Below are positions 20,465 through 34,973 of a stretch of DNA of 64,000 nt, in pieces (the first letter of the stretch is position 1; each line of letters opens with the position of its first letter). This DNA is from Methylovirgula sp. HY1 (GTDB taxonomy: Bacteria > Pseudomonadota > Alphaproteobacteria > Rhizobiales > Beijerinckiaceae). Position numbers and translations under genes: made by a program. The stretch lies in NCBI RefSeq assembly GCF_019343105.1, contig NZ_CP073764.1:930001-994000 (forward strand), in the 5' to 3' direction. Under the pieces are notes generated by a model. That model made no database searches and was not told the origin of the DNA. It was given only the letters and a program-made list of their open reading frames with translations.

Positions 20465-21487
20465 ATGAGCATGCCGCCTACACACACCCTGCTCGCGACG
20501 ATCATACTCCCGCATCTTGTCGACGCCCCGACACCGCTCACCTTCATGCGCGGCTATGGCTCGAAAACCTATCCCGTGACCGCCTTGACCTGGGGATTGC
20601 TCGCGATCTCCATCATCGTGGTCATTATCATTACGGGCTTGGTCGTGGCCGGCGCTTGGCGTCGACGTGCCAGATCCAGCGACGGCATTGCACAAGTCCC
20701 CGTCAACCGGGGTGCCAGTGGAGTCGGATCGGTCGCGATCGCCGTCGGCATCTCATCGCTCGTCCTGCTCGGATCGGTCATCTGGACCGTCGTGGTTCTG
20801 GCCGACATCAATGCGCCAGCCCGCAAGCCAGCCCTCACGATCGAAGTCACCGGACAGCAATGGTGGTGGAAGGCGCGCTACCTCGGCAACGATCCATCGC
20901 GCGTGCTGACCACGGCGAACGAGATCCACATCCCGACAGGACAGCCGATCCGCATCAAGCTTTTGAGCGCCGATGTCCTCCATTCATTCTGGGTCCCCGC
21001 TCTGACCGGCAAGACCGAAACCGTGCCGGGCCAGACCAACGTCACCTGGCTCGAAGCGGATCGTCCTGGCGTCTACGCCGGCCAATGCACGCTGTATTGC
21101 GGCAGGCAGCATTCGCACATGGGCTTTCTGGTCGTCGCGCAAAAGCCTGCTGCCTTCAAAGCCTGGCTCAATGCCGAGATCAAACCAGCCGCCGCGCCGC
21201 CGCCCAGCGACACCACTGCGCTGCGAGGCGAGAAGGACTTCGTATTTCATTGCGGCACCTGTCACACGGTCCGCGGCACCGACGCGGGTGGCACCGTCGC
21301 GCCCGATCTCACCCATGTGATGAGCCGCGCGATGCTGGCCGCGAACACATTGCGGAATACGCCGGCAAATCTCGCCGGTTGGATCGCCAATCCACAAGCG
21401 CAGAAGCCAGGAACCAAGATGCCGACTCTTTATCTCTCGGGGCCGCAACTCAACGCCATCGTAACTTATGTCCGAACTCTGAAGTGA
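20465..21487 (+). CDS. coxB: cytochrome c oxidase subunit II fused to cytochrome c (caa3-type)
   Basis: About 340 residues. It has two N-terminal membrane helices (near residues 35-58 and 85-110), a periplasmic CuA domain and a C-terminal cytochrome c. CuA ligands are H173 (VLHSFWVP), C208, C212, H216 and M219 in CTLYCGRQHSHM. The usual Glu two residues after the first Cys is Leu (L210). Haem c is bound by CGTCH at 263-267, with a plausible Met ligand in GTKMPTLYLS. The start is uncertain: the ATG at 20465 lacks a clear ribosome binding site. First gene of the operon; coxA begins 9 bases after it. Confidence 0.9.
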   Translation: MSMPPTHTLLATIILPHLVDAPTPLTFMRGYGSKTYPVTALTWGLLAISIIVVIIITGLVVAGAWRRRARSSDGIAQVPVNRGASGVGSVAIAVGISSLVLLGSVIWTVVVLADINAPARKPALTIEVTGQQWWWKARYLGNDPSRVLTTANEIHIPTGQPIRIKLLSADVLHSFWVPALTGKTETVPGQTNVTWLEADRPGVYAGQCTLYCGRQHSHMGFLVVAQKPAAFKAWLNAEIKPAAAPPPSDTTALRGEKDFVFHCGTCHTVRGTDAGGTVAPDLTHVMSRAMLAANTLRNTPANLAGWIANPQAQKPGTKMPTLYLSGPQLNAIVTYVRTLK

Positions 21488-21496
21488 GGCGATGCC

Positions 21497-23443
21497 GTGA
21501 CATCCTTGGACGTCGACAGAACGCCACGCACCGCTGTTGCCACCGCCGATCTTCGGCAACGGCTCAACGAAATCTGGGAAACGAAACCAGGCATCATCGG
21601 CTGGCTGTCGTCCGTCGACCATAAAGAGCTCGGACTCCGCTACATCGTCACCGCCTTCATCTTCCTGCTCGCAGGCGGCGTCGAAGCGCTGGTCATGCGT
21701 CTGCAGCTTGCCGGCCCCAACGAACATCTGCTGACGCCCGAGCAATATAACCAGCTGTTTTCCACGCATGGGATGACGATGATCTTCCTCTATGCGATGC
21801 CGATCCTTTCAGGTTTCAGCAATTTTCTCTTCCCGCTCGTTCTCGGGTCGCGGGATATGGCGTTTCCGCGGCTCAACGCGTTGTCCTATTGGATCTATGT
21901 CGCCGCCGGCATCTTCATGTATGTCGGCTTCCTGATCGGCGCCGGCCCGAACAATGGCTGGTTCAACGACGCGCCCTACTCGTTGCGGTCCTATAATCCG
22001 GGCCTCAACATGGATTTCTATTCGCTCGGGATGATCTTCCTCGGCATATCGACGACTGTCGGCTCCACCAATTTCGTCGTGAGCTTCTTCCGCACCAGAG
22101 CTCCCGGCATGTCGATCAATCGCACGCCGGTCATCGTCTGGGGCACATTGACGGCCTCCGTCGCAAATCTTCTTGTCGTGCCTTCGGTCAGCCTAGCGTT
22201 TTTCCTGCTCTGGATGGATCGCCAGTTTGGCACGCGTTTCTTCGATGTCTCGGAAGGCGGCCAGACTCTGCTGTGGCAGCATCTGTTCTGGATGTTCGGG
22301 CATCCCTGGGTCTATGCGATCGTGCTTCCGGCGATGGGTATGGTCTCGGACGGGCTGCCGGTGTTTTGTCGGCGTCCGCTCGTCGGCTACACGCTGGTGG
22401 TGCTCGCCACCGTCGCGACAATGATCGTCGGCTTCGGCGTCTGGGTCCACCATATGTTTGCGACCGGGCTTCCCAATCTCTCGCTCGCATTCTTCGGCGG
22501 CGCATCGATGGCCATCACCATACCGAGTTCGGTCTCGGTCTTTGCCTGGATCGCGACGATCTGGCTCGGGCGGCCAGTCATTACCACCGCCTTTCTGTTC
22601 TTTTCGAGCATGATCATTCTGTTCGTCATCGGCGGCGTCTCCGGTTTCATGACAGGCTCGGTGCCGGTCGATTGGCAATTGACCGCCACCTATTGGATCG
22701 TCGCGCATATCCATTACGTGTTGATCGGCATCAATCTCTTCCCGGTCGTCGGCGCTCTCTACATGTGGTTTCCGAAATTTACCGGGCGGATGCTCGACGA
22801 AAGGCTGGGGCGCTGGAATTTCTGGACGATGTTCATAGGCTTCAACATCGCATTCCTGCCGATGCATTTGACCGGTCTCTTGGGCATGCCGCGCCGGATC
22901 TACACCTACGGCGGCGACATGGGCTGGAATGCGCTCAATCTCATCTCGACCATCGGCGCGTTCATTCTCGCGATCGGCGTGCTGCTGCTCCTCATCAATG
23001 TCGCGAGAAGTCTGAAGTTTGGTCCGATCGCAGGTCCAAATCCTTGGGATGCGCCGACGCTCGAATGGTCGGTTCCATCCCCGCCGCCGCCCTATAATTT
23101 CGCGGTGATCCCGATCGTCGCGAGCCGCCACCCGCTTTGGGAAGACCGCCTACACGAAACCCCGGCTCGCTCATCGCTCAACACCGGCTTGGTTCTCGAC
23201 GACGGCCGCGAGACGATCGGAACTTCAGCGCTCGACGGCGAACCCGATGTCATTCTCGAGATGCCCGGCGACTCGATCGCGCCGCTCGCCCTGACCGTCG
23301 CGCTTTCGATCGGCTTCACTGGTTTGCTGATCAATGCCTGGTGGCTCGCCGGAGTCGGGGCCGTCGCGGCGATCGTCGCCATTCTCGTCTGGCTGTGGCC
23401 GGAACGCAGCCTCAATCAAGTGGCGGGGTCTACCAATGGCTGA
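21497..23443 (+). CDS. coxA: divergent cytochrome c oxidase subunit I
   Basis: The catalytic haem-copper subunit, 648 residues from a GTG start. Haem and CuB histidines are present: THGMTM, H269 in GHPWVY, H318-H319 in VWVHHMF, and H404/H406 in VAHIHY; Y273, the cross-linked Tyr, is kept. The D-channel entry Asp is present (GSRDMAFPR). However W271 replaces the conserved Glu of HPEVY, S347 replaces the K-channel Lys, and T396-A397 replace the His-Asp that bind Mg. After the normal core, a 110-residue tail carries two more hydrophobic helices. It overlaps coxC by 8 bases. Confidence 0.92.
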   Translation: MTSLDVDRTPRTAVATADLRQRLNEIWETKPGIIGWLSSVDHKELGLRYIVTAFIFLLAGGVEALVMRLQLAGPNEHLLTPEQYNQLFSTHGMTMIFLYAMPILSGFSNFLFPLVLGSRDMAFPRLNALSYWIYVAAGIFMYVGFLIGAGPNNGWFNDAPYSLRSYNPGLNMDFYSLGMIFLGISTTVGSTNFVVSFFRTRAPGMSINRTPVIVWGTLTASVANLLVVPSVSLAFFLLWMDRQFGTRFFDVSEGGQTLLWQHLFWMFGHPWVYAIVLPAMGMVSDGLPVFCRRPLVGYTLVVLATVATMIVGFGVWVHHMFATGLPNLSLAFFGGASMAITIPSSVSVFAWIATIWLGRPVITTAFLFFSSMIILFVIGGVSGFMTGSVPVDWQLTATYWIVAHIHYVLIGINLFPVVGALYMWFPKFTGRMLDERLGRWNFWTMFIGFNIAFLPMHLTGLLGMPRRIYTYGGDMGWNALNLISTIGAFILAIGVLLLLINVARSLKFGPIAGPNPWDAPTLEWSVPSPPPPYNFAVIPIVASRHPLWEDRLHETPARSSLNTGLVLDDGRETIGTSALDGEPDVILEMPGDSIAPLALTVALSIGFTGLLINAWWLAGVGAVAAIVAILVWLWPERSLNQVAGSTNG

Positions 23444-24038
23444 TGCAGTGCTCGAGCCACGTCCTCTGCCGGTCGGAGGCGCCATCGGGCGCACCGGTGT
23501 CGGCTGGTGGGGCCTGCTTTGTTTTCTCGCAACCGAGGCATCGCTCTTCGGCTATCTCATTTTCAGCTACACCTATATCGCCGTCCAGATCGACCCGGCG
23601 GCGGCGGCGCAAGCGCGGCTGTCCTTCACCTTTGCTCTGCCGATGACGATCGTCGTCATTGCCAGCAGCGCTGTCCTTTACTTGGCCGAACGCGCCATTG
23701 CGGCAAATCGCAAAGGCCAGCTTTTGGTGGCGCTCGTCGTCGTCCTCGCTTTTTCGATCACCTTCGTCGCGCTCGAAGCCTTCGAATGGAAGTCGCTGCG
23801 CTTCACCCTGACGTCGAACGCACTCGGCTCCGCCTATTTCGTTACGACAGGAACGCATCTGGCGCATTTCGTTCTCGGCATCGTCGCAACCGTCTTCGCC
23901 ATCGTCTGGGTCGTGCTCGGCTATTTCGACGCGGTACACAAGTCGCCGCTGCTGATCCTGTTCGACTATTGGCATTTCGTCCATGCGGTCTGGGGCGTGA
24001 TCTTCATCGCACTCTACATCGTGCCATATCTCGGGTGA
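23436..24038 (+). CDS. coxC: cytochrome c oxidase subunit III (short, five-helix form)
   Basis: A 200-residue membrane protein with five predicted helices. WWGLLCFLATEASLFGYL contains the conserved family Glu, and the last helices carry GTHLAHFVLG and DYWHFVHAVWGVIF, which identify subunit III. Canonical subunit III has seven helices; the missing first two may be supplied by the two extra helices at the end of CoxA. It starts inside the coxA stop region (ATG at 23436), suggesting translational coupling. Confidence 0.9.
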   Translation: MADAVLEPRPLPVGGAIGRTGVGWWGLLCFLATEASLFGYLIFSYTYIAVQIDPAAAAQARLSFTFALPMTIVVIASSAVLYLAERAIAANRKGQLLVALVVVLAFSITFVALEAFEWKSLRFTLTSNALGSAYFVTTGTHLAHFVLGIVATVFAIVWVVLGYFDAVHKSPLLILFDYWHFVHAVWGVIFIALYIVPYLG

Positions 24039-24043
24039 CCGCC

Positions 24044-24481
24044 ATGACCTTGACCGAGTCCGCGCATCCTTCACCGCAACGACGACGTGTCGGTCTCGTC
24101 TCTCTGGCGATAGGCCTGACCGGCGCGCCAGCCGCCTGGGTCACGCAGCTCGTGGTGAATTACGGCCTTTCCAGCTACGCCTGCTATCCGGCTTCAGTGC
24201 CGCGTGGCCATGTTCTGCCAGGGTGGGAAAACGTCCGGATCGCTTTGCTCATCATCAATCTGCTTGCCCTCATGCTGGCCGTCGGCACCACCTTTTTATC
24301 GTATCGCAATTGGGTTGCGACACGCGATGAGCATCCTGGCGCGCTCGACGATCTCGTCGCGGCCGGCGAAGGTCGGACCCGCTTCATCGGCCTCGCGGGC
24401 GCGATATCCGGCATTGGCTTCGCTTTGGCGATCGTCTTCGATTTGATCGCCGTGCTGGGGGTTCCGCAATGCAGCGGCTGA
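24044..24481 (+). CDS. uncharacterised membrane protein in the cox-xox operon
   Basis: 145 residues, not recognised. Three hydrophobic helices are visible: about residues 17-42 (VSLAIGLTGAPAAWVTQLVV), 66-88 (IALLIINLLALMLAVGTTFL) and 115-138 (FIGLAGAISGIGFALAIVFD). Two cysteines, one in the YACYP loop and one in the C-terminal PQCSG, could form a periplasmic pair. It begins 5 bases after coxC and overlaps the next gene by 13 bases, so an accessory subunit or assembly factor of the oxidase is likely. There is no copper- or haem-binding motif. Confidence 0.7.
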   Translation: MTLTESAHPSPQRRRVGLVSLAIGLTGAPAAWVTQLVVNYGLSSYACYPASVPRGHVLPGWENVRIALLIINLLALMLAVGTTFLSYRNWVATRDEHPGALDDLVAAGEGRTRFIGLAGAISGIGFALAIVFDLIAVLGVPQCSG

Positions 24482-24840
24482 GCGCCCTCCTCGCCATTCT
24501 CTGCGTCTTGCCACTGTCGGCCTGCGACGGCCGCTTCGCATCGCGGACCATCGTTGTCGGCGGCAATCCGCAACGCGGCGCTGCGGCGATCCGCAACGTC
24601 GGCTGCGGAATATGCCATGCGATTCCCGGCATCGAGGGCGCAAATGGCAAGGTCGGACCGCCGCTCGACAATATTGGCCAACGCATGTTCATCGCCGGCA
24701 TCATGCCAAACACGCCAGACAATATGGTTGTCTGGCTCATGACGCCGCAAAGCATCGTCCCTGGAAACGCAATGCCGAACTTGGGTTTGAACGCTCATGA
24801 AGCACGCGACATCGCAGCCTATCTCTACACGTTGCGCTGA
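24469..24840 (+). CDS. monohaem cytochrome c, predicted lipoprotein
   Basis: 123 residues. A lipoprotein-type signal (LLAILCVLPLSAC) would leave the mature protein lipid-anchored at Cys19. One haem site, CGICH, is followed by a likely Met ligand in GNAMPNLGLN. It probably passes electrons to the oxidase. From about VGCGICH to the end it closely matches the C-terminal half of the next gene, including at DNA level. Confidence 0.85.
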   Translation: MQRLSALLAILCVLPLSACDGRFASRTIVVGGNPQRGAAAIRNVGCGICHAIPGIEGANGKVGPPLDNIGQRMFIAGIMPNTPDNMVVWLMTPQSIVPGNAMPNLGLNAHEARDIAAYLYTLR

Positions 24841-24893
24841 GCGCAGCGGCTTTATTCGCATCGACCCGAAATCCGCATTGGGAAGGATTTTTC

Positions 24894-25700
24894 ATGTCGT
24901 CTCGCTTTCCCGTTCGTGAGCGTCGCATACTGGCTTTCGCGCTCGCCGGAGCCGCGTTCGGTCTCGTGGCTTTCGGTAGTCAAAGAAGCAACGCGGCAGG
25001 CGCTTCGGTGCCGTCGCCTGGCCGGCCGTTGAAAGTGCCTGTCACCAAGCTCTTTCCCGGCGGCGGATCACCGCCGCCGCAGATCGCCAATGCCAAAAAA
25101 TATGAAAGCAATCCGGTCGCCATCGCGGCCGGAAAGGCGATCTTCAATTCCTACAATTGCTCGGGCTGCCACTTCCACGGCGCCGGCGGCATGGGACCGC
25201 CGTTTATGAACGGCGGCCATTTCATCTATGGCGGCGAGATCGATCAGATCTTCGCCTCCATTTATCAGGGCCGGCCGAACGGCATGCCCTCTTGGGGCAG
25301 GACGATTCCCGTGCCGATGATCTGGGATCTGGCGGCCTATGTGAAAGCCCTATCGCAGCCGGCGGAACTCCAGGAGACGGGTGGACCGCCATTGCCCCGG
25401 CCCAATCCGGCTGTTCCCGGCGGCAATGCGCAGCATGGCGCCGAACTCGTCACCAACAATGGGTGCGGCGCCTGTCACCAAATCCCCGGCATTCGGAGCG
25501 GCGTTGGAAAAGCCGGACCGCCGCTGAATGGCATCGCCGGCCGCACGGTCATCGCCGGCGTCATGCCGAACACACCCGCCAATATGATCGCCTGGATCGA
25601 AAATCCGCAGGCCATCGTCCCCGGCAACGCTATGCCAAACTTGGGATTGAACGACAATGAAGCACGTGACATCGCAGCCTTTCTCTACACGTTACACTGA
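24894..25700 (+). CDS. dihaem cytochrome c built from two neighbouring cytochrome types
   Basis: 268 residues with an N-terminal signal (AFALAGAAFGLVAFGSQRSN) and two haem sites: CSGCH near residue 91 and CGACH near 193. The first half resembles the xoxG-type cytochrome at 27572-28126 (KLFPGGGS, YNCSGCHFHGAGGMGPPFMN, IYQGRPNGMPSWGR). The second half resembles the lipoprotein cytochrome at 24469-24840 (GPPL, VMPNTP, IVPGNAMPNLGLN, ARDIAAFLYTL). It is probably a periplasmic electron carrier linking dehydrogenase and oxidase. Its last 44 bases overlap the start of xoxF. Confidence 0.88.
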   Translation: MSSRFPVRERRILAFALAGAAFGLVAFGSQRSNAAGASVPSPGRPLKVPVTKLFPGGGSPPPQIANAKKYESNPVAIAAGKAIFNSYNCSGCHFHGAGGMGPPFMNGGHFIYGGEIDQIFASIYQGRPNGMPSWGRTIPVPMIWDLAAYVKALSQPAELQETGGPPLPRPNPAVPGGNAQHGAELVTNNGCGACHQIPGIRSGVGKAGPPLNGIAGRTVIAGVMPNTPANMIAWIENPQAIVPGNAMPNLGLNDNEARDIAAFLYTLH

Positions 25701-27597
25701 TCGTATCGGTCCTCTGCAGGCGGCGCCGACAAAGGATTTTTGCGTCGCGCGCGCGCGACGATGGTCGGGCGGGGCGAGCGCTGTCGCGCTGCTGATGCTT
25801 CTGCCGCAAATGGCCGCCGCGCAGAATGCGGCTGCGCCGGCGCCAGCCCAAGTTCCGGCCGATGCGTCGACAAAAGCGACAATTCCGGCCTTCGTCAGAA
25901 AAGACGACGGTCAATGGATCATGGCCGCGCAAAATTATGCGAATACGCGCTATTCGACGCTGAAGGAAATCAACGCCGACAACGTCAAAAATCTCCAGGT
26001 CGCCTTCACTTTCTCGACCGGGGCCGACAAGGGCCAGGAGGCGGCGCCGCTCGTCGTCGACAATACCATGTATATCGTCGGTCCCTATCCGAACAATCTC
26101 TTCGCCTTGGATCTGACCAAGCCCGGAGCGCCGCTGAAATGGGCATATGAGCCACATCCGGAGCGCGCGAGCCAAGGTGTCGCCTGCTGCGACGTCGTCA
26201 ATCGCGGCGCGGCCTATGACGACGGCAAGATCTTCTACAATACCCTCGACGATCATACCGTCGCGGTCGACGCGAAGACCGGCAAGCAAGTCTGGAAAAC
26301 CAAACTCGGCGACATCAACAAGGGCGAAACCATCACCATGGCGCCGCTCGTCGTCAAAGGCAAAGTCATGGTCGGCGATTCCGGCGGCGAGCTCGGCGTC
26401 CACGGTTGGCTGACTGCGCTCGACGAGAAGACAGGCAAGATCGCTTGGCGCGCCTATAGCACCGGTCCCGACAAGGATGTCCTGATCGGGTCGGATTTTC
26501 ATCCCTATTATGCCTCGGACAAAGGCAAGGATCTCGGCGTCTCGACATGGCCGCCAGGGGCCTGGAAAACCGGCGGCGGAACGGTCTGGGGCTGGCTCGC
26601 CTATGACCCCAAACTGAACCTGCTTTATTACGGAACCGGCAATCCGGGCCCATGGAACCAGGAGCAACGGCCGGGCGTGAATAAATGGACATCGGGAATC
26701 TTCGCCCGCGATCCCGATACCGGCGCAGCCAAATGGTTCTACCAATATACGCCGCATGACGAGCATGATTACGACGGCATCAACGAGAGCCTGCTGCTCA
26801 ACATGCCCATCGATGGAAAGAACCGAAAGGTGCTCATCCATCCCGACCGCAACGGGCACATGTATGTCATCGACCGCGCCACCGGCCAGGTTCTGCAGGC
26901 GCATACTTATGGCGTGGTGAACTCGACAAAGGGCGTCGACCTCAAGACCGGCGCGCTGATGCTCAATCCTGAAAAGGAAACGAAGCTCGGCACTGTCGTG
27001 CATGACATCTGCCCGACAGCCTCTGGCACCAAGGATTGGGAGCCTTCATCCTTTTCGCCGCTCACCGGCCTCATGTATGTGCCGCATGAAAATCTGTGCA
27101 TGGATTGGGAGGATGTGCAGGTCAATTACATCGCCGGCACGCCCTATGTCGGCGCCAATGTCGTCATGAAGGCCGGCCCCGGCGGCAATCGCGGCGAACT
27201 CACGGCTTGGGACCCGATTCAAGGCAAGCCCGTCTGGCAGATCAAGGAGGATTTGCCGGTGTGGAGCGGCACTGTCGCCACGGCCGGAAACCTCATCTTC
27301 TACGGCACCATGGACGGCTGGTTCAAAGCCGTCGACGCGCGGACCGGCGCGTTGAAATGGAAGTTTAAGCTCGGCTCCGGAATCATCGGTCAGCCGGTTG
27401 TCTACAAAGGTCCGGACGGGCACGAATATGTCGCCATCTTGGACGGCGTCGGCGGCTGGGCCGGGGCGATCGTCTCCGGCAATCTCAATCCCAAGGATCC
27501 GACCGGAGCGCTCGGCATGGTCGGCGCCATGGCCGACCTCAAACAGAAGACCACGCCAGGAGGGATGCTCTATGTTTTCGCGCTTCCCCACGCCTGA
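25657..27597 (+). CDS. xoxF: PQQ methanol dehydrogenase, lanthanide (XoxF) type
   Basis: A periplasmic quinoprotein alcohol dehydrogenase, 646 residues including a long N-region and hydrophobic signal (GASAVALLMLLPQMAAAQ). Adjacent C177-C178 (ACCDVVNRG) form the vicinal disulfide. E245 (GGELGVHG) and N329 (YYGTGNPGPWN) are metal ligands; D371 is the catalytic Asp, and D373 two residues later (DEHDYDGIN) is the extra Asp that marks lanthanide enzymes, where calcium MxaF has Ala. No MxaI-type subunit follows. The start is uncertain, since the ATG lies within the previous gene and lacks a ribosome binding site. The XoxF clade was not determined. Confidence 0.93.
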   Translation: MKHVTSQPFSTRYTDRIGPLQAAPTKDFCVARARRWSGGASAVALLMLLPQMAAAQNAAAPAPAQVPADASTKATIPAFVRKDDGQWIMAAQNYANTRYSTLKEINADNVKNLQVAFTFSTGADKGQEAAPLVVDNTMYIVGPYPNNLFALDLTKPGAPLKWAYEPHPERASQGVACCDVVNRGAAYDDGKIFYNTLDDHTVAVDAKTGKQVWKTKLGDINKGETITMAPLVVKGKVMVGDSGGELGVHGWLTALDEKTGKIAWRAYSTGPDKDVLIGSDFHPYYASDKGKDLGVSTWPPGAWKTGGGTVWGWLAYDPKLNLLYYGTGNPGPWNQEQRPGVNKWTSGIFARDPDTGAAKWFYQYTPHDEHDYDGINESLLLNMPIDGKNRKVLIHPDRNGHMYVIDRATGQVLQAHTYGVVNSTKGVDLKTGALMLNPEKETKLGTVVHDICPTASGTKDWEPSSFSPLTGLMYVPHENLCMDWEDVQVNYIAGTPYVGANVVMKAGPGGNRGELTAWDPIQGKPVWQIKEDLPVWSGTVATAGNLIFYGTMDGWFKAVDARTGALKWKFKLGSGIIGQPVVYKGPDGHEYVAILDGVGGWAGAIVSGNLNPKDPTGALGMVGAMADLKQKTTPGGMLYVFALPHA

Positions 27598-28126
27598 CTG
27601 GCGCCTCGCGACTGTCGCTCTGCTCGGCGCCGCTTTCGGATTCGCCGGTTTCGGCATGGAGAAAAGCAAAGCGGCTGACACCCTACCGACCACGGCGAGC
27701 GAACCGGTGAGCGTGCCCACCACCAAGCTCTTTCCAGGCGGCGGATCGCTGCCGCCCGAAGACCCTAATGCCAAGCGATACGCAGCCGATCCGCAATATA
27801 TCGCGACCGGGAAGAGGCTGTTCAACTGGTACAATTGTTCCGGCTGCCATTTCCATGGTGCCGGTGGCATGGGACCGCCCTTCATGAATGGCGGCCATTG
27901 GATCTATGGCGGAAGGCTCGATCAGATTTTCGCATCGATCTATCAAGGCCGCCCGAACGGGATGCCGTCCTGGGGCCGAAAAATACCGACCGAACAAATC
28001 TGGTCGCTTGCCGCCTATGTGAAGGCACTGTCGCAGCCATCACAACGCAAGGAGACTGGCGGTCCGCCATTGCCGGCAACTCATGCACCACCGCCGCAGC
28101 CTGAAAATTCCGGGAAAACCCAATGA
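27572..28126 (+). CDS. xoxG: cytochrome c electron acceptor of XoxF
   Basis: 184 residues with a signal sequence (RLATVALLGAAFGFAGFGME) and one haem motif, CSGCH, followed by GAGGMGPPFMNGGHWIYGG. AGGAGGG sits 8 bases before the ATG, which lies inside the xoxF 3' end (26-base overlap). Position directly after xoxF identifies it as the partner cytochrome. It is a paralogue of the N-terminal half of the dihaem cytochrome upstream. The C-terminus is a proline-rich tail. Confidence 0.85.
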   Translation: MFSRFPTPDWRLATVALLGAAFGFAGFGMEKSKAADTLPTTASEPVSVPTTKLFPGGGSLPPEDPNAKRYAADPQYIATGKRLFNWYNCSGCHFHGAGGMGPPFMNGGHWIYGGRLDQIFASIYQGRPNGMPSWGRKIPTEQIWSLAAYVKALSQPSQRKETGGPPLPATHAPPPQPENSGKTQ

Positions 28127-28944
28127 TGAAACAAGGCCTCTGCTTCCTCCTGCCAGGCGCCCTCGCGATCGGCATCGCCCATGCGCAGGCGCGCGAATTG
28201 CGCGTCTGCGCCGATCCCAACAATCTTCCCTTCTCGAACGTGAAGGGCCAAGGATTCGAGAACAAGATCGTCGATCTGATCGCCAAGGATCTCGCCGCAA
28301 AAGTCCAATATACGTGGTGGGCGCAGCGGCGCGGCTTCGTCCGCAAGACGCTGAAAGCCGAAACATGCGATCTATGGCCTGGAATTGCCACGAAAGACGA
28401 TATGGTTGCGACCACGCAGCCCTATTATCGTTCGACCTATGTTTTCGTGACCCGCGCGGATCGACATCTCGACATCCATTCTTTCGACGATCCAAAGTTG
28501 CGGCACTTGAAGATCGGCGTCGAGATGGTCGGCTATGATGCGCAGAATACGCCGCCCGCCCATGCATTGGCGCGACGCGGCATCACGAAGAATGTCCGCG
28601 GCTTTCTTCTCTTCGGCGATTATCGGACGCCCAATCCACCGGCTTCCATCGTCCATGCCGTTGCCGATGGAAGCATAGACGTTGGCTTGGTGTGGGGACC
28701 TCTCGCCGGCTATTTTGCCAATAAGGAACCGGTAGCTTTGACGGTCACGCCGGTTGAACCGGCGCAAGACGGCACGCAATTCCCGATGACGTTTAACATC
28801 TCGATGGGCGTGCGGCACGGCAACGGCGCATTGCAGACCGAAATCGATCGCGAACTCCGCCGCAACAAATCCAAGATCACGGCCATTCTCGCCGCGTATC
28901 ACGTGCCAACGCTGGCAGAAATACCCGCCCATCCAGAAAATTGA
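28123..28944 (+). CDS. xoxJ: periplasmic solute-binding-like protein XoxJ
   Basis: 273 residues with a signal peptide cut after AHAQA, then a family 3 solute-binding fold starting ELRVCADPNNLPFSNVKGQG. Proteins of this MoxJ/XoxJ group sit beside methanol dehydrogenases and are thought to help mature or activate them; solute transport is unlikely because no permease genes are nearby. It overlaps xoxG by 4 bases and ends the operon. The 324-base gap 28945-29268 after it shows nothing recognisable. Confidence 0.88.
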   Translation: MMKQGLCFLLPGALAIGIAHAQARELRVCADPNNLPFSNVKGQGFENKIVDLIAKDLAAKVQYTWWAQRRGFVRKTLKAETCDLWPGIATKDDMVATTQPYYRSTYVFVTRADRHLDIHSFDDPKLRHLKIGVEMVGYDAQNTPPAHALARRGITKNVRGFLLFGDYRTPNPPASIVHAVADGSIDVGLVWGPLAGYFANKEPVALTVTPVEPAQDGTQFPMTFNISMGVRHGNGALQTEIDRELRRNKSKITAILAAYHVPTLAEIPAHPEN

Positions 28945-33570: not shown

Positions 33571-33656
33571 ACTGCCAACGATAGGTCGGCTAGGCATCAT
33601 ATCTGCCGAAAGCCATAATCGCCGTGCTGCACCACGACCGCATTAAGGGAAACGGG

Positions 33657-34973
33657 ATGACCGATACGCTTGTAGATGCGCGTCCGATCAGCGGCAGCAG
33701 CTCTCGGACGCAGCGCGCCATTCGCGAAGTATTGGACGGCCGGCGCCGTGGCCTGCGGGCGTTTCTGCCAATGGCCGGCCCCGCGGTGATCGCGTCGATC
33801 GCCTATATCGACCCGGGCAATTACGCGACGAACATCCAGGCCGGCGCGAAATACGGCTATGGCCTGCTATGGGTCGTCGTGCTGGCGAATCTGATCGCGA
33901 TGCTGTTTCAGGCCTTATCGGCAAAACTCGGCATCGTGACCGGCCGCAACCTCGCCGAAGTCTGTCGCGAGCAATTGCCGCGGCCTCTCGTCATCGGCAT
34001 GTGGATCGTCAGCGAGATCGCCGCAATGACGACGGATCTCGCCGAATTTCTCGGCGGCGCGATCGGCCTATCGCTTTTGTTCCATCTGCCCCTTTTTTGG
34101 GGCATGGTCGTCACCGGCATCGTCACCTACGGACTGCTAACATTCGAGCGGCACGGCTTTCGGCCCCTCGAACTCATCATCGGCGCCCTGGTCGCCATCA
34201 TCAGCCTTTGTTATCTGATCGAAATGTTCATCGTTCCGGTGGACTGGGCGAGCGCGGCCTATCACACGGTCATGCCGCAGCTCCAAAATGCCGCTGCGAT
34301 TACGATTGCCGTGGGCATCATCGGCGCCACCGTCATGCCGCATGCGATCTATCTTCATTCCGGGCTCACCCAAGCGCGCATGCCCGTCGAGACCGATGCC
34401 GATCGCCGCAAGATTCTCAAATTCTCCAATCGGGAAGTCGTCATCGCGCTGACGCTCGCCGGCGCGGTCAATATGGCGATGGTGATCATGGCCTCCGGTG
34501 CCTTTCACCAGGGCCACAGCGACGTTGCCGAGATCGAGACCGCCTATCACACGCTGACGCCGCTCCTGGGGGCTGGCGCCGCGACCATCTTCCTCATTTC
34601 CCTGCTCGCCTCCGGCGTGTCGAGTTCCGCCGTCGGCACGATGGCCGGCCAGATGATCATGCAGGGCTTTGTCGGGTTTCGCATTCCGGTCCTGATCCGG
34701 CGTCTCGTCACCATGATCCCGGCCTTCGTCGTCGTCGGACTCGGCGTCAACTCGACCAATGCGCTGATCATCAGCCAGGTCGTTCTCAGCCTTGCCTTGC
34801 CGGTGCCGATGATTGCGCTTTTGATCTTCACCCAGCGGCGCGACATCATGGGCAATTTCGCCAATGGGCTTGTGGTGCAGATCGCGGCATGGGTGGGAAC
34901 CGCGCTGGTCCTGAGCCTCAACATCATCCTTTTGCTGCAGACCTTCGGAATTCCCGTGCCGCTTCTCGGATAG
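33657..34973 (+). CDS. mntH: NRAMP manganese/divalent metal transporter MntH
   Basis: A 438-residue proton-coupled Mn/Fe importer of the inner membrane with about eleven helices. The metal-binding DPGN (AYIDPGNYATNIQAG) in helix 1 and VMPHAIYLHS in helix 6 are intact. AAGGGAAACGGG precedes the ATG at 33657. Divergent mntR and the palindrome between them indicate repression by manganese. Confidence 0.95.
   Translation: MTDTLVDARPISGSSSRTQRAIREVLDGRRRGLRAFLPMAGPAVIASIAYIDPGNYATNIQAGAKYGYGLLWVVVLANLIAMLFQALSAKLGIVTGRNLAEVCREQLPRPLVIGMWIVSEIAAMTTDLAEFLGGAIGLSLLFHLPLFWGMVVTGIVTYGLLTFERHGFRPLELIIGALVAIISLCYLIEMFIVPVDWASAAYHTVMPQLQNAAAITIAVGIIGATVMPHAIYLHSGLTQARMPVETDADRRKILKFSNREVVIALTLAGAVNMAMVIMASGAFHQGHSDVAEIETAYHTLTPLLGAGAATIFLISLLASGVSSSAVGTMAGQMIMQGFVGFRIPVLIRRLVTMIPAFVVVGLGVNSTNALIISQVVLSLALPVPMIALLIFTQRRDIMGNFANGLVVQIAAWVGTALVLSLNIILLLQTFGIPVPLLG

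Follow-up and report, generated by a model that had tools for sequence, protein, structure and literature searches.

A gene for a lanthanide-type methanol dehydrogenase that runs together with genes for a terminal oxidase raises the question of whether the two serve one respiratory chain, and of what kind of oxidase would end it. Such a locus lies in the 64,000-nucleotide stretch of the Methylovirgula sp. HY1 genome analyzed here (contig NZ_CP073764.1, positions 930,001 to 994,000; hereafter the window); the genome comprises 3.74 Mb in two contigs. Nine genes, all open and all on the + strand, occupy positions 20465–28944. They encode a CoxB–cytochrome c fusion (caa3 subunit II, 20465–21487), CoxA (648 aa with a C-terminal extension, 21497–23443), CoxC (subunit III, 200 aa, 23436–24038), a 145-aa membrane protein with three long predicted helices (24044–24481), a mono-haem cytochrome c of 123 aa with the lipobox LSAC (24469–24840), a di-haem cytochrome of 268 aa (24894–25700), XoxF (25657–27597), the cytochrome c XoxG (27572–28126), and the periplasmic binding protein XoxJ (28123–28944). 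Family matches were obtained to COX2 and Cytochrom_C (CoxB, above the CoxB cut-off), COX1, COX3 (CoxC), PQQ dehydrogenase, and the MoxJ-type family TIGR03871 (XoxJ, above cut-off). The preliminary description had reported nine co-directional genes with gaps of no more than 53 bases and five haem c motifs, and recounting the open reading frames, junctions, and motifs gave the same figures. The successive spacings were +9 (coxB–coxA), −8 (coxA–coxC), +5 (coxC–small protein), −13 (small protein–cytochrome), +53 (cytochrome–di-haem cytochrome), −44 (di-haem cytochrome–xoxF), −26 (xoxF–xoxG), and −4 (xoxG–xoxJ), so that five of the eight junctions overlap. CxxCH occurred once each in CoxB, the 123-aa cytochrome, and XoxG, and twice in the 268-aa cytochrome. 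Consensus scans gave no excess of promoters (two hits versus 3.4 in shuffled sequences) or terminators (nine versus 8.3), and Rfam at gathering scores returned two tRNAs and nothing else.

The dehydrogenase was assigned to the PQQ-dependent methanol/ethanol family by TIGR03075 (642.9 bits against a cut-off of 480), and its closest solved match was 4mae, with D371 and D373 aligned to the DYD of that structure. The extra Asp that had been singled out earlier is thus present two residues past D371, but it is no special feature of this enzyme, being the lanthanide signature of XoxF enzymes in general (PMC10875860). The residue between the two Asp residues is Tyr372 in the window; Trp takes this place in one of six rows (L036) of group A1 and in Methylobacterium group 5. 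For the XoxF tree, 78 of 134 rows were retained after removal of those at least 86% identical to others or with short flanks. The window sequence fell in a 58-row clade (SH-aLRT 97) together with L119, Methylobacterium oxalidis, while the root split was weak (34) and the oxidase-linked row L232 stood apart from the clade on a long branch. We take strain NBRC 107715 to be the same as DSM 24028, which links L119 to the published M. oxalidis XoxF3. The sole XoxF of that species is described as XoxF3 (PMC8561711), and because the window enzyme shares a clade with L119, the sole labelled reference, we call it XoxF3-type. The genome contains three matches to fae and two to pqqD, which fit methanol use; one of the former and one of the latter lie on the second contig (G000:C2). 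Published data on the clade point both ways: XoxF3 of Methylocella silvestris is barely expressed and not lanthanide-responsive (PMC9291206), which counts against an important role, whereas that of OB3b rises with cerium (PMC12482762), which counts for one.

The interpretation in the preliminary description was supported in part. Its claim that this dehydrogenase gene sits with a terminal oxidase held, with xoxF adjoining caa3-type oxidase genes, and so did the proposed check that the adjacency be conserved in relatives; the single transcript and the supercomplex suggested there are proposals. We assembled 134 distinct XoxF-like sequences from scanned loci and additional genome loci; of the 433 relatives in the scan of genome contigs, the best 80 were retained, with Mesorhizobium over-represented. 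CoxA proteins at least 60% identical to that of the window are hereafter referred to as type A, and the other XoxF3-linked oxidase lineage, under 60% identity, as type B. Among 101 distinct XoxF sequences of at least 56% identity, coxA was found within 10 kb in 83 (including L230, scored by a coxA fragment) and was absent in two (L051 and L088), the flanks being too short in the other 16; the adjacency was therefore kept in 83 of 85 decidable cases, 22 with a type A and 61 with a type B oxidase. Below 56% identity, two sequences adjoined type A oxidases (L232 and L235), 25 adjoined none, and six were undecidable; a check at the DNA level of 25 distant MDH loci, each covering about 8 kb, gave no coxA, coxB, or coxC hit that exceeded 60 bits. 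Linkage was also regular in 199 genomes of the family, where all 24 listed XoxF matches of at least 58% identity (E 1e-160 or better) had coxA within 4 kb (in G103 as a fragment alone), as did G218 with an XoxF of 53% identity. In an even draw of 398 Pseudomonadota genomes, with three candidates scored per genome so that some matches may be missed, all eight matches (E 1e-190 or better), the window included, had coxA within 3 kb. Gene order varied between loci while the linkage stayed, and recurrence across genomes argues that the adjacency is not due to chance.

The adjacency of xoxF3 and cox genes is already published. Acidobacterial xoxF3 genes occur with genes for CoxI–III, CtaG, CytC, XoxG, and XoxJ (PMC10875860, which cites Keltjens 2014 for cox genes in a few xoxF3 operons), and a figure legend in PMC11845868 names cox and CtaG, with Methylocella silvestris among the species. 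The window cluster resembles these in its XoxF3-type dehydrogenase, XoxG, XoxJ, oxidase subunits, small conserved protein, and other cytochromes c. It differs from them in that the cox genes come first and run into the xox genes, that none of the nine proteins matches the CtaG family, and that it encodes a di-haem fusion cytochrome and a CoxA of a GHPWVY lineage, the cited descriptions of the clusters containing no mention of such residue changes. It likewise resembles COX operon type a-II, in which COX1 has 630–670 aa and a COX4-like C-terminal extension and PQQ dehydrogenases are often near (PMC4013037): the window COX1 has 648 aa and an extension, COX3 is shorter than the mitochondrial form, and xoxF lies 2.2 kb away. 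The cluster is thus a fresh member of a published arrangement. Missed by the preliminary description, and not found in the literature searched, are the altered set of proton-pathway residues in the oxidase, the disagreement between XoxF and oxidase trees, and the fusion of XoxG to a cytochrome. An NRAMP transporter gene at 33624–34973 lies 4.7 kb past xoxJ. NRAMP genes have been tied to xoxF3 regions (PMC10875860), but a xoxF3-linked role for this gene was rejected, as the other loci, none of which reaches further than about 9 kb from xoxF, gave only three weak hits at E 1e-5 (L114, L082, and L111).

We then focused on the residues by which the oxidase would move protons. The best solved matches of the window CoxA were family A oxidases, and the top alignment paired GHPWVY with GHPEVY and IPSSVSVF with VPTGIKFF. 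Thus, Trp (W271, codon 22307–22309, +) occupies the position of the D-pathway Glu and Ser (S347, codon 22535–22537, +) that of the K-pathway Lys, while the D-pathway entry Asp (D120, codon 21854–21856, +) is kept. Like family A oxidases of subfamilies A1 and A2, the window enzyme has the CuA motif, the haem and CuB ligands, the active-site Tyr, and the D-pathway Asp; unlike them, it lacks the K-pathway Lys, and its motif FGHPWVY is neither that of A1 (XGHPEVY) nor that of A2 (YSHPXVY) (PMC8361435). In a survey of 120 distinct CoxA sequences, the 24 type A rows (the window and 23 distinct relatives) all had Trp at the Glu position and none had Lys, which was replaced by Ala in 16, Ser in five, Thr in two, and Gly in one; the D-pathway Asp was kept in all 23 rows with a letter there. 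Five further type A rows also had Trp, one of them probably the L112 contig again. At position 63 (21683–21685), all 23 type A rows with a letter have Glu, which appears once among the three commonest residues listed for the other groups.

The XoxF-linked CoxA sequences under 60% identity showed a different pattern. In 59 of these 60, Gln replaced the Lys; the exception, L058_5308 (35% identity), is the second oxidase in its locus and has Asp, Glu, and Lys. The 59 all kept the Glu, and the entry Asp was lost in 56 of the 58 with a letter (Asn in 45, Ala in five, Ser in four, Thr in two) and kept in two; linked oxidases keeping the Asp are L095, L218, and L296. A further 32 CoxA sequences without the Lys and without an XoxF seen nearby kept the Asp in 22 cases and had lost it in 10, five of which (L151, L153, L156, L158, and L162) adjoin XoxF by coordinates. 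The remaining four rows, three of them the other CoxA proteins of the window genome, kept all three residues. The haem and CuB His ligands and the active-site Tyr were kept in all rows with letters. In the enzymes studied, Asn for the D-pathway Asp or Gln for the Glu impaired activity and blocked the uptake of protons, while pumping can be uncoupled by changes close to the Asp (PMC8361435). Loss of the K-channel has been described for archaeal family A oxidases (PMC8239418); the window lineage shares with these a K-pathway loss inside family A, but is bacterial and dehydrogenase-linked and has an altered D-pathway as well. It also departs from the a-II description, in that one a-II-like lineage here lacks both Glu and Lys; the word "proton" is absent from the main text of PMC4013037. 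The literature searched contained no account of proton-pathway residues in XoxF3-linked oxidases; an earlier mention may exist, for example in supplements or in Keltjens 2014.

Linkage to xoxF as the sole cause of these changes was ruled out by type A oxidases without xoxF (L279 and L280) and by Asp-less type B-like oxidases without XoxF3. No xoxF lies within about 8 kb of the type A oxidases of genomes G532 and G534; that of G532 adjoins a cytochrome that contains three cytochrome c stretches. Type B-like oxidases that lack both the Asp and an accompanying XoxF3 were found in L281–L284, L286, L246, L248, and L249, and in L247 with a 43% PQQ dehydrogenase alone; those of L281–L283 adjoin other cytochromes c or a molybdopterin oxidoreductase. 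Since such unlinked rows carry the same residues, the pattern follows the oxidase lineage and not strictly XoxF. Judged by their neighbours, these oxidases seem to serve as terminal modules in a number of periplasmic systems, XoxF3 being the main partner seen. Stretches with oxidases lacking xoxF and placed next to the three-stretch cytochrome or the molybdopterin oxidoreductase are L279:10935–12713 and L281:11383–13977.

CoxB carries the CuA motifs GQCTLYCGRQHSHM and DVLH and the haem motif CGTCH, giving subunit II the CuA site and the haem c that characterize caa3-type oxidases. In an alignment of 25 type A and 88 other sequences, the commonest CuA and haem variants listed keep Cys, His, and Met; no conserved acid was found at the K-pathway entry in the 25 type A rows, where the alignment is loose. 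The 145-aa membrane protein had no Pfam or NCBIfam match at E 0.001, and its predicted fold (pLDDT 82.7) had no PDB match at E 0.001. No family was common to more than two of 16 members among its relatives, which occur mostly in type A clusters, with weak hits in the type B loci L115 and L123.

The di-haem cytochrome combines an XoxG-like N-terminal domain with a domain like the cytochrome encoded at 24469. The N-terminal domain is sister to the XoxG of the window (support 95/96), the C-terminal domain falls among single-haem cytochromes at a position that the tree does not resolve, and the gene is 75–76% identical at the DNA level to both xoxG and the 24469 cytochrome gene. From these comparisons we interpret the protein as a copy of XoxG joined to a copy of the lipoprotein cytochrome encoded next to it. 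A search of 199 genomes of the family and 11 of the genus gave a full-length match in the window genome only. The gene was seen in none of 19 loci inspected, of which four (L039 from G004, the nearest relative, and L046, L049, and L096) start too close to xoxF to tell, and G005 and G006 have the window gene order minus this gene. No such fusion was found in the literature searched. That XoxG and the next cytochrome occur naturally fused suggests electron exchange between the two.

To compare the histories of dehydrogenase and oxidase, we set the XoxF tree against a CoxA tree of 69 of 120 rows, built with the D/E/K columns masked and after removal of rows that shared at least 80% identity with a retained one or had fewer than 380 filled columns; both trees were quick searches without bootstrap. 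Type A oxidases formed one clade (support 100), sister to unlinked and type B rows (96). On the XoxF tree, however, partnership with type A requires six changes, the partners lying in three separate groups besides L232. In L050, which is probably one contig with L242, an XoxF of the window's group lies next to a type B cluster, and genomes G020 and G145 each contain two XoxF–cox clusters that differ in their oxidase, which is type A in one and type B-like in the other. The disagreement points to exchange of oxidase partners, which is the simplest reading of the trees, and it was not found in the literature searched. We considered and rejected the view that two independent origins of the pairing are proven: the CoxA tree splits types A and B by unlinked rows, yet a single origin on the CoxA side, with A and B held together, was not rejected by the AU test (p 0.172).

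Taken as a whole, the locus probably encodes a dedicated XoxF3-type chain in the periplasm that carries electrons from methanol to oxygen and ends in a caa3 oxidase with non-canonical and probably weak or no proton pumping. XoxF would oxidize methanol with PQQ and a lanthanide. Its electrons would pass to XoxG, or else to the XoxG-like part of the di-haem protein, and next to the lipoprotein cytochrome or the copy of it within the fusion; the cytochrome domain of CoxB would then relay them to CuA, haem a, and haem a3–CuB, so that bc1 is bypassed. With the K-pathway Lys and the D-pathway Glu absent, protons must enter by another route, and the oxidase would take them up in a non-canonical way; judging from its residues, it probably pumps fewer protons or none and conserves less energy, although compensating residues could restore pumping. 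Because the electrons of XoxF would not pass through bc1, such a chain would put speed before yield and may act as a rapid sink dedicated to electrons from methanol. A broader and more tentative proposal, which we hold at less than even confidence, is that the oxidases dedicated to periplasmic dehydrogenases, XoxF3 above all, comprise two family A lineages in which the Lys was lost and the D-pathway was independently dismantled, in one lineage through Glu to Trp and in the other, at the opposite end, through replacement of the entry Asp by Asn, Ala, Ser, or Thr. This would leave naturally decoupled or single-path enzymes that were traded among methanol dehydrogenases as low-coupling electron sinks. 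This proposal would place the oxidase of the window outside A1 and A2.

The oxidase may instead be a normal pump in which other polar groups typical of type A, such as E63, N224, and T219, stand in for the Glu and Lys. E63, invariant in type A and rare among the commonest residues elsewhere, is a possible substitute proton group, D120 is kept, and A2 enzymes provide a precedent by swapping the Glu for a Tyr–Ser pair (PMC8361435). The YSHP motif of that precedent, however, was found in none of the CoxA rows listed, and the loosely aligned K-pathway entry of CoxB offered no conserved acid, so that we regard normal pumping as possible but rather unlikely. If the adjacency reflected a transferable respiratory island only, electrons from XoxF would enter the general cytochrome c pool and reach any oxidase. 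The disagreement of the trees and the three other CoxA proteins of the genome, with all canonical residues, would be expected under such an arrangement; against it, the linkage persists across gene orders and two oxidase lineages, genes overlap, and XoxG is fused to a cytochrome. We consider an island without functional wiring unlikely, since linkage in varied order, gene overlaps, and the fusion point to direct wiring.

A different question is what the proposed chain oxidizes. Its main substrate might be another alcohol or an aldehyde, with the wiring unchanged; XoxF3 systems are without experimental study according to PMC10875860, and the data for OB3b and Methylocella concern expression. 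The nearest solved relative, 4mae, is nevertheless a methanol dehydrogenase and the genome has fae genes, which makes another main substrate the most doubtful of these alternatives.

The D- and K-pathways are the two well-characterized proton routes of family A, and two of three classic proton-moving residues are missing here, which is of consequence because these residues bear on the energy saved. A natural lineage without Glu and Lys is a ready test of the groups that pumping needs, and because the usual partner of the type A oxidase is known, the energy yield per methanol is measurable. The biochemically unstudied XoxF3 clade in turn gains a concrete electron acceptor to test. Members of the lineage without Glu and Lys were seen among Alpha- and Gammaproteobacteria, as well as in one MAG with the label Deltaproteobacteria. 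In the type B lineage, a coxA gene next to an intact XoxF of the window's group was found split into two frames (L050:12996–14955 and L242:2450–4445).
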